DNA from: Candidatus Pacearchaeota archaeon
GTDB taxonomy: Archaea > Nanobdellota > Nanobdellia > Pacearchaeales > GW2011-AR1
Length of the DNA stretch: 53,388 nt
Assembly (NCBI GenBank): GCA_018304045.1
Contig: JAGVWZ010000012.1
Span: forward strand, 1-53,388
Direction: 5' to 3'
Part shown: piece after piece, positions 2,478 through 5,915 of the stretch
Layout of the letters: each line of letters starts with the position of its first letter
Position numbering within the stretch: position 1 is the first letter of the stretch
Translations under genes and position numbers: made by a program
Notes under the pieces: model-generated
Told to the model about the DNA's origin: nothing
Seen by the model: the letters and a program-made list of their open reading frames with translations, nothing else
Database searches by the model: none

Positions 2478-2695
2478 ATTTTCATTAGTAATGTAAAAAT
2501 ATCTTTAGAAGCTTATAAAAAATAATCTTTGCCTATATTCTTACATATTTTCATAGTTAAGTTAAAACTATTTGCCCATTTAGAATAAGCACACCATCCT
2601 TGCAAACTTTCTGAAAGTTGATTCATACTAATATCTCCTTTGTTGTATTGATTTATCTTTAAAATTACCTTTCTAATATTCCTCTTTCTTAATAA

Positions 2696-3462
2696 GAAGT
2701 GCTTCAAAGTGAAGACCTTACTAAAAAAGAGATAAATTTTTAACCAATGATTTATTTGAGATGTTATGAAAAGTAAAGAAGTAAAAAACATTGATTTTTG
2801 GGAAAGATTGTTAAGTGAACTTCCAGAGTCGTATAAAGAATGGTTTAAAGAAGAGAGAAAATTTCTTCACGACATCTAACAAGAAACTCTAAGGTGCTAG
2901 AGGTGGGATGTGGAGATGGTAGAAGTATAAAAGATATAATTGATATAACTCAAAATATTACTGCAATAGACCACGACCAAAAGGCAGTAAATGATGCTAT
3001 TGATAATTTTAAGGAATATCCAAATATAAAAATAATTTTGGGAGATGCAAGAGAATTACTTTTTAAAGATAAAAACTTCGACTTTGTTTTGTGTCTTACA
3101 ACTTTTGCAAATTTTGGAGATAACAAATTCAAGGCATTGGGGGAAATGAAAAGAGTGCTAAAAAATAGAGGAAAAATAATAATTAGTGTTTTTTCAGAAG
3201 ACGCTTTTGAAGAAAGGATGAAGGTTTATAAAAAACTTGGAAGCCCTATAAAAGAGATAATTGATAACAAAAAAGTTATATTTAATGAAAGTCTTGGAGA
3301 CAATGTTTCTGAGCAGTTCTCAGAGAATGAATTAATTAAAATATTTAATAAAATTAATCTTAATGTGGAAATAATAGAGAAGTCAGGAATCGGTTATATG
3401 TGTTTATTATCCAAAATTAAGAGTCCTTAGTAAGGTCTACGAAATGAATACCTTCTTAATAA
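2696..3462. mobile_element. cassette-like insertion 1 in DGR RT (methyltransferase cargo)
   Basis: bounded by gaagaccttactaa (2711-2724) and ttagtaaggtct (3427-3438) inverted arms and by CTTCTTAATAA cores at 2685-2695 (ttTCTTAATAA variant) and 3452-3462. Confidence 0.6.
2766..3430 (+). pseudogene. class I SAM-dependent methyltransferase, frameshifted near 2876
   Basis: VLEVGCGDGRS motif I and LGDARELLFKDKNFDFVLCL; MKSKEVKNIDFWERLLSELPESYKEWFKEERKFLHD lies in another frame directly upstream. Confidence 0.65.
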
Positions 3463-3974
3463 GAAAGACTTCAATGTGAAGACCTTACTAAGTTTGTTTA
3501 AAAGATTTTAATAAAGTATAATGTTCTGCAGTGTATTGTGGCAGGTTTCTGTTTTCAGGTATTAGAGTCTGTGTAACAATCCTGTAATTACCAATAATTG
3601 CTGTATTTGGAAACATAGCTTCAACTGCCCCACTTCTTTCTTCCTGTTTACTAGAATAAGCAACTCTCTCTCCATTTAATTCATAGCCAACATCTCCCCT
3701 AAAATCAATAGGTATAGTCTCCCCACTATCAGTTAATAGATGTAAGGTGCTTATATCTTTTCTAATAGCTACAGGTTGCCCAGAAGGCATTTCTGTTAAA
3801 ATAGTGGATGTCCTCTTAAAAAGTATCTTTAATAATCCTTTAGCACTAGATTCTTTGGGTATTTCTTGTTCTCCCATTTTAACATAATTAAAATAAGATT
3901 TTTAAAGATTCATATATTGCAATATATCTTTATTAAATTTAGTAAGGTCTTCAAAAAGGATACCTTCTTAATAA
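3463..3974. mobile_element. cassette-like insertion 2 in DGR RT (129-aa ORF cargo)
   Basis: arms gaagaccttactaa (3478-3491) and ttagtaaggtcttc (3939-3952), a perfect 14-bp inverted repeat; core ccttcttaataa at 3963-3974. Confidence 0.6.
3488..3877 (-). CDS. hypothetical protein, cassette 2 cargo
   Basis: 129-aa ORF. Confidence 0.55.
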   Translation of the reverse strand: MGEQEIPKESSAKGLLKILFKRTSTILTEMPSGQPVAIRKDISTLHLLTDSGETIPIDFRGDVGYELNGERVAYSSKQEERSGAVEAMFPNTAIIGNYRIVTQTLIPENRNLPQYTAEHYTLLKSFKQT

Positions 3975-4867
3975 TCTAAAGTGATAAAAATTCCTGAAAC
4001 CAACAAAATCTATTCCTCTTGAAAGAGGAATTACTCTAGATTTATCTGGATGAAGCTCTAATTTTAATTCATTTATCAAAAAGAGGTTGATTTGGGTTTT
4101 CCAAGTTTCAAGTTGCTCTCTTGATTGATGCAAAATAACAAAATCGTCAACATATCTTATATAATATTTTGCTTTTAATTTATGTTTTACAAAATAATCA
4201 AGTTCATTTAAATAGATATTAGCAAAAAATTGGGATGTTAAGTTTCCAAGAGGCATGCCTTTATTTTGCATAGCAAAATTGGGGGGGGGGGCAAACTAAT
4301 TTTGGAGGTATTTTCTAAAATCTTTTCAATCAACAAAATAACTTTTTCATCTTTAATTTTCTTTTTGATAATGCTTAAAAGAATTTTATGATTAACTTCT
4401 TCAAAATAATGTTTTATATCTGCTTTAATACAGAATGCCTCTGATTTCAAATTATTGGTAACTTTTCTTTTGAATTCATCAAATCTCTTTATTGCAAATA
4501 AATTGCCCTTGCCCTTTCGATTTGCACAGGAATCATAGATAAATGTTTTATCAAAAATAGGTTCAATTATTCTTATTAAAGCATGATGAATAACTCTATC
4601 TCTAAAAGCGGATTTGTTTATTTTTCTTGTTTTTGGGTCTCTTAGTATAAATGTTATTAATGGTTTTGGTTGATAAATCTGTTTAGTCAATTCATTTTGC
4701 AGTTGAAATAAATTTTTGATTGTATCTTTTTCAAATTCTATGACATAAGGTTTCTTTGTTTTATGTTTTCTTGCTTTTCTCCAAGCAAGAAGTAAATTAG
4801 AGAGGTTATAAACTTGTGAATATAATTCTTTCTCTTCCATAAAATATAAATCCTAACCATTTCTGAG

Positions 4868-4958
4868 CTATTCTGCCGTTGTCATTGGAATTAGCCAAGT
4901 CATCATCATTAGCATTCCAGTTGCCATTCCTGTTAAGGTAAGCCCTGAACAACTTATA
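4868..4958 (-). repeat. DGR template repeat (TR)
   Basis: coding strand reads LFRAYLNRNGNWNANDDDLANSNDNGRIA with dense AAC/AAT codons; aligns ungapped to 5243-5333 with differences only at A. Confidence 0.93.
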
Positions 4959-5120
4959 GCCAATTTATCTATTCCCAAAAATTAATTTGGTCACTGAAAA
5001 TCCTCGCAAGTATTTTCTGTATTTCATGGCATAATAAATTTTAATAATGCACTAATAAATTGACATGTAGCCCAGCCATTTATGGCTAGGAATTTAATAA
5101 AGAAAAATATCTATATATAT

Positions 5121-5915
5121 TTATGCTCTAAGTCTGGCTATAAGATCGGCTCTTTCTTTTTGTTGTCTAGTTAAAAGTTCTGTTGCTTGTCTTTGTAATT
5201 CTTCAAAATTTTTTTGCGCAGCTTCGCCAGTTGTTTCAACCACTACCCTGCCGAGGTCACTGGAATCAGCCAAGTCAACATCACCAGCATCCCAGACGCC
5301 ACCCCTGTAAAGGCAAGCCCCGAACAACCCATTATTTGATGGTGAATAATTCCAATTGAAATCTTGAGTGTTTAAAACCTGGGATTTAGCTAAATCTCTT
5401 CCTTGTTCTGATAATACTAAGACTAATCCGCTTGGAGACTTTTCATCAACCATATAAGTTAAGGCACTATAGGGTATAAGTTTTGGGCTTGTTAAATCCA
5501 TTCCTATGCCTTGTAAATTTTCTGCTAATGCTTTCGCTTGTACAGGATTAACTTGATAACCTTGTTCCCCAACAAGATTTAATCCAAAATCAACATAAAA
5601 ACCAGACATAAAACTAGGATTATTTTCTTTTGCAACTTGCAATCTTGGTATTGCAACAAGAACTTTTCCTTCTGGAAGAATTTCATTTAAAATAACTAAT
5701 CTATATGGGCTTGATTGTGCTAATCTTCCATCTCTTTCTTCAAATGAACCTAAAGTTTGCTTAACTCTTTCCATTAATCCTTCATCCGGAATAGTTCCTA
5801 AAATACTTTTAACTTTTTCAGAATATAATTGAGGATAATTTCCTGATTCTAAAGCTACACACATTGGAACTTCTTCAGATCTTATTGCAACTGCTGAATA
5901 ACTTGGTTTTGCCAT
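5121..5915 (-). CDS. DGR target protein, C-type-lectin-like VR domain plus ~30-aa charged C-terminal tail
   Basis: 264-aa ORF containing VR; GLFGACLYRGGVWDAGDVDLADSSDLGR resembles CLec-fold DGR targets. Confidence 0.85.
   Translation of the reverse strand: MAKPSYSAVAIRSEEVPMCVALESGNYPQLYSEKVKSILGTIPDEGLMERVKQTLGSFEERDGRLAQSSPYRLVILNEILPEGKVLVAIPRLQVAKENNPSFMSGFYVDFGLNLVGEQGYQVNPVQAKALAENLQGIGMDLTSPKLIPYSALTYMVDEKSPSGLVLVLSEQGRDLAKSQVLNTQDFNWNYSPSNNGLFGACLYRGGVWDAGDVDLADSSDLGRVVVETTGEAAQKNFEELQRQATELLTRQQKERADLIARLRA
5243..5333 (-). repeat. DGR variable repeat (VR) within the target gene
   Basis: encodes LFGACLYRGGVWDAGDVDLADSSDLGRVV; 19 hand-counted substitutions versus TR, all at TR adenines. 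Confidence 0.93.

Follow-up and report, generated by a model that had tools for sequence, protein, structure and literature searches.

Hypermutation by a diversity-generating retroelement (DGR) in a Candidatus Pacearchaeota archaeon is probably phase variable, with slippage at a short tract in the reverse transcriptase (RT) gene turning it on and off. The element lies in the window, by which we mean the whole stretch of 53,388 nucleotides that was analyzed, positions 1 to 53,388 of contig JAGVWZ010000012.1 in the assembly GCA_018304045.1. The basis for the proposed switch is a comparison of species, each represented by one consensus genome. In this proposal, the DGR RT gene contains a simple-sequence contingency locus. 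The sequences show a slippage-prone repeat within a loop that tolerates changes in length, after RT motif 3 and before motif 4 and the catalytic YVDD, and the length of the repeat decides whether motif 4 and everything after it is in frame. Repeat units gained or lost during replication would move the RT, and with it mutagenic retrohoming, back and forth between an OFF state, a truncated RT without the active site, and an ON state with the RT in frame. The diversifier would then be silent in most cells, and a minority of cells would diversify the target. The break of the RT frame at a recurrent homopolymer is the main novelty of the locus, and it was missed in the preliminary description of this DNA.

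The identification of the window locus as a DGR is supported by adenine-only divergence between a variable repeat (VR) and a template repeat (TR), by an RT of the DGR clade, and by the standard order of target, TR, and RT (Table 1). Realignment of VR and TR on the minus strand without gaps gave 19 mismatches over 90 positions, all of them at TR adenines on the coding strand (14 A to G, 4 A to T, and 1 A to C), just as first described; no TR base other than adenine differed. Adenine makes up 30 of the 90 TR bases, and the probability of 19 out of 19 mismatches falling there by chance is 3.8e-12. No similarity between VR and TR was found outside the 90-position block. The VR lies inside the target open reading frame, and the TR lies between the VR and the start codon of the RT gene (position 4840), which it adjoins. 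The target had been given as a protein of 264 amino acids with a tail of about 30 residues beyond the VR; the protein length is correct, and the tail is longer, at about 39 residues. The remark that DGRs are already known in DPANN archaea also agrees with the literature, nanoarchaeal DGRs having been described by Paul et al. in 2015 (PMC4372165) and DGRs having been surveyed globally by Roux et al. in 2021 (PMC8144416).

Table 1. Features of the DGR locus and of the insert that interrupts its RT gene, in window coordinates
Feature	Position	Strand	Basis
DGR target protein, 264 aa, orphan	5121..5915	-	ORF; Pfam search; homologous DGR targets in relatives
Variable repeat (VR)	5243..5332	-	19 mismatches versus TR, every one at a TR adenine
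Template repeat (TR)	4868..4957	-	Ungapped alignment with VR
RT N-terminal part, motifs up to 3, frame 1, stop soon after tract	4238..4840	-	ORF; PHROG RT family, E 1.5e-54
11-base homopolymer, proposed slippage switch	4281..4291	G on +, C on coding strand	Same-site repeats in relatives
RT part with motif 4 (GMPLGNLTSQ) and motif 5 (YVDD), other frame	3951..4271	-	ORF; RVT_1, E 1.5e-11
RT C-terminal (thumb) part, severed by insert	about 2513..2695	-	LLRKRNIRK...LQGWCAYSKWANSFNL in ORF 2513-2791; weak GIIM match
Insert, two units with inverted-repeat ends	2686..3974		Repeat search; repeats 2686-2724, 3426-3492, 3939-3974
Methyltransferase gene within insert, N terminus apparently frameshifted	2894..3430	+	Methyltransf_11, E 1.9e-18
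129-aa orphan ORF within insert	3488..3877	-	ORF; without family match

The target is an orphan with no match in Pfam, but the suggestion that the novelty lies in its family is weak, since homologous DGR targets occur elsewhere in the order. One such relative, from another genome (L040), is 55% identical, and the homologues of the target are DGR targets there. An AF2 model of the target reached a pLDDT of 79, and its top fold matches were C-type lectins, with weak scores (E values of 0.26 in the PDB and 0.13 in BFVD), so that the comparison only hints at a C-type-lectin fold.

The adjoining minus-strand gene had been taken for a DGR-type RT, and its type is borne out. Motif 4 contains the SQ dipeptide (GMPLGNLTSQ), the YxDD motif reads YVDD, and the best PDB match of an intact homologue (L009) was the 8ub7 group, the BPP-1 DGR RT (E 1e-45), with a group II intron RT next (E 2e-21). 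The gene is not a single open one, though, and is broken in two ways: by a frameshift at the 11-base tract just ahead of motif 4, which leaves the N-terminal part and the motif 4-5 part in different frames, and by a 1.3-kb insert. A structure prediction for the RT had a pLDDT of 50 and was not used. The insert has TTATTAAGAA (coding strand) at each junction and contains no recognized transposase; a search with its inverted repeat gave no relatives above background, and no close copy of the insert turned up in 20 genomes. Because the insert interrupts the RT gene, this copy may no longer work at all, barring help from another RT. The window tract is also the sole poly-C (coding strand) among the tracts of related RTs, the flanks at 4270 to 4310 resemble the reverse complement of the loops of relatives (as compared with L008), and CAAAATT/AATTTTG inverted repeats are present, all of which suggests a micro-inversion. 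The interruption of the window RT and the deviant base of its tract weigh against the proposed switch.

The same genome has a further target, TR, and RT on another contig (C20), where the VR and TR mismatches are at A in 14 of 14 cases. The C20 RT is frameshifted at a G11 tract (C20:10575-10585) in the same loop ahead of motif 4, and both DGR RT paralogues of this genome are out of frame with an 11-base tract at the same site. Apart from these two tracts, no G run in the 1.16-Mb genome reaches 9 bases. Judging by its sequence, the C20 DGR is OFF through the tract alone. Adjoining it (L004, 8271 to 8822) is an ORF in which a long run of (AAT)n encodes about 18 asparagines.

Homologues of the RT were gathered from 207 genomes of the same order and were present in 78, yielding 101 distinct RTs, of which 68 were in frame at the loop and 33 were out of frame. 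The loop contained a repeat in 45 of these RTs, a poly-G in 30, a poly-C in the window RT, and (GA)n or (AG)n in 14; the poly-G/C tracts were 6 to 13 bases long and the (GA)n tracts 5 to 27 units. RTs with a repeat were in frame in 13 cases and out of frame in 32, versus 55 in frame and 1 out of frame among the 56 RTs without a repeat (Fisher P = 9e-15). Dinucleotide runs of at least 10 nt were present in 14 loops versus none in flanks of about 900 nt, and G/C runs of at least 8 in 25 loops (about 120 to 180 nt) versus 5 flanks (about 900 nt). A change of one or two repeat units reopened the frame in every one of the 32 OFF copies versus 1.9% with shuffled flanks. Several features of a contingency locus are found here: a slippage-prone repeat in an ORF, a frame set by repeat length, both states (13 ON and 32 OFF), and retained selection. 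The frame offsets of the poly-G/C tracts were 11, 9, and 11 over the three frames, which are about equally common, and this spread led us to reject programmed frameshifting, for which one constant offset would be expected. We also judged it unlikely that the RT is permanently split, because both flanks are open in a joinable frame in all 32 OFF copies.

Turnover at the site has been frequent. The repeat label changed at least 28 times across a tree comprising 115 RTs, with at least 12 changes forced by well-supported branches, and the loops are quite different between RTs that are about 80% identical; on the strength of these comparisons, the tract is gained and lost at a single permissive site. 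A comparison of 120 RTs revealed no near-identical alleles that differ in tract length, the closest pairs being about 80 to 87% identical with wholly different loops, a result that weighs against the switch. One otherwise in-frame DGR RT (L036, G026:C9) has a C10 tract near its 3' end, about 490 nt after motif 4, which may switch the C terminus instead. The L035 RT, and also L026 and L032, have a C-terminal extension of about 110 amino acids, and the L035 extension matches HTH_40 (PF14493, E 9e-17).

A pattern scan of a named genome collection gave 51 matching stretches. Pacearchaeota, Woesearchaeota, and other Nanoarchaeota, among them the complete genome GW2011_AR20, account for about 40 of these as RTs, and CPR bacteria for 3; the pattern demanded the GMP motif and so could not match the GIP or GLP forms found in bacterial RTs. 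Matches in Myxococcus, Geobacter, Prevotellaceae, Desulfoluna, and others were set aside as chance, since they are not RTs. A phylum-wide scan found the pattern in 19 of 380 genomes, from several families, and the reversed pattern in none of the 380. These data bear on whether the tracts, or their lengths, are artefacts of sequencing or assembly, for example of two-color poly-G, an explanation that we find hardly credible. Homopolymer lengths can be wrong in metagenome assemblies, one-base errors are possible at single loci, and the assemblies of some relatives (L202, L203, and L211) have poly-G at contig ends or close to them, probably as sequencing artefacts. The RT tracts, however, are internal with coding sequence on either side, they recur at the same position across many genomes that come from separate studies and include a complete one, (GA)n tracts are found at this site as well, and the reversed pattern is absent.

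Tracts in the same loop were seen in three CPR DGR RTs, two from Patescibacteria (L074 and L091) and one from Saccharibacteria (L084), with a G10 in frame and a G9 and a G13 out of frame. The mismatches between VR and TR in these three were at A in 16 of 16, 21 of 24, and 16 of 17 cases. In the saccharibacterial order, the poly-G pattern was present in only 1 of 197 genomes. Viral contigs gave no tract-bearing RT and only three distant RT homologues.

The out-of-frame RTs do not look abandoned. In the 100 codons that follow the tract, pN/pS was about 0.19 for ON and OFF copies alike, and the window RT compared with L031 gave a dN/dS of 0.08. The YxDD motif was kept in 45 of 45 OFF copies in a larger set, and OFF terminal branches were not longer than ON branches (P = 0.91). 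To judge from these substitution patterns, related tract-bearing RTs remain under selection as full-length proteins. At OFF loci, adenine accounted for 299 of the 333 mismatches counted over the best repeat pairs, a few of these pairs being other repeats, and clean VR/TR cases gave 21 of 21, 19 of 19, and 15 of 15. Because the VRs at OFF loci differ from the TR mainly at adenine, the RT has evidently been active recently in lineages with an OFF consensus. The RTs might instead be recently dead copies, the repeat frameshifts and the window insert marking decaying DGRs; the window RT does combine a frameshift with an insert, and broken RTs with A-only VRs have been described earlier (PMC3521204). 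We consider this very improbable as a general account, given that a change of one or two repeat units restores all 32 OFF copies, that breakage is confined to one site, that neither relaxed selection nor long branches are seen, and that RTs without the repeat are almost never broken. It is plausible for the window RT itself because of the insert.

The main rival to a switch in the DNA remains transcriptional slippage, or ribosomal frameshifting, by which some full-length RT would always be made and the repeat would lower RT dosage without any switching. Polymerase slippage on homopolymers is well known, and the near-equal frequencies of the three poly-G/C frames and the equal selection on OFF and ON copies are as expected if length hardly matters. 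We nevertheless regard it as unlikely. The (GA)n tracts of 5 to 27 units at the same site are a poor substrate for a one-base slip, the offsets are not constant as they would be under programmed frameshifting, and the same G tract follows the start codons of surface proteins, in the classical arrangement for phase variation.

CGAA follows the tract in 25 of 49 cases, and GGGGGGGGCGAA occurred 39 times in 195 genomes versus 4 times for a reversed control. About half of the non-RT cases inspected are in genes for large secreted surface proteins, 22 to 46 nt past the start codon, with roughly five each in frame and out of frame; a tract soon after the start codon is the classical arrangement of a contingency locus. 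Several loci (L281 to L285 and L288 to L291, in G075, G148, G139, G144, G147, and G206) have a poly-G of 8 to 10 followed by CGAA a few codons into a large secreted surface protein, in frame in some and out of frame in others, and they are likely phase-variable surface proteins of the same archaeal order. One of these genomes, G075, has several surface-protein paralogues with a common N terminus and a G8 or G9. An intergenic G9CGAAC tract (L213/L251, G037:C1:168559) lies just upstream of a TATA-like TTTATAAATG and is possibly a promoter-spacing switch. We think it rather likely that stochastic simple-sequence switches in the RT govern DGR hypermutation across DPANN archaea, as well as in a few CPR bacteria, and that these, with the same G tract controlling secreted surface proteins, belong to a general archaeal phase-variation system.

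Compared with known systems, the window locus shares with BPP-1-type and archaeal DGRs a VR-bearing target, a TR adjoining the RT, adenine-only divergence, and an RT closest to the BPP-1 bRT among solved structures, but differs in that the RT frame is governed by a tract of poly-G/C or (GA)n ahead of motif 4. The DiGReF study of 2012 reported scattered broken RTs, frameshifted or interrupted by transposons, with VRs that differ from the TR only at A, and read them as recent inactivation (PMC3521204). Those were single cases, whereas the frame change here is recurrent, at the same site, linked to a repeat, restorable, and accompanied by purifying selection. Among bacteria, the homopolymeric tracts of Helicobacter canadensis are simple-sequence contingency loci that change by slipped-strand mispairing (PMC2823697). 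Bacterial contingency loci likewise have homopolymeric or dinucleotide tracts within ORFs and mixed in-frame and out-of-frame alleles, but what they switch is a surface antigen or a modification gene, whereas here the setting is archaeal and the switched gene would encode a mutagenesis enzyme. We found no earlier report of a repeat-switched DGR RT in the literature on DGRs and phase variation that we searched, although priority is not certain, and a search for phase variation in DPANN or other archaea returned nothing relevant.

DGR surveys that need full-length RT ORFs would have missed about a third of the systems in this sample (33 of 101 being out of frame). How DGRs are kept from continuous mutation is, to our knowledge, poorly understood. 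If the proposed switch is real, a heritable, reversible, and random change in the RT would be the answer to the restraint of DGR mutation in this lineage, with most cells stable and a minority diversifying. It would also mean that simple-sequence phase variation operates in uncultivated archaea, and that a contingency locus there controls a second diversity generator.
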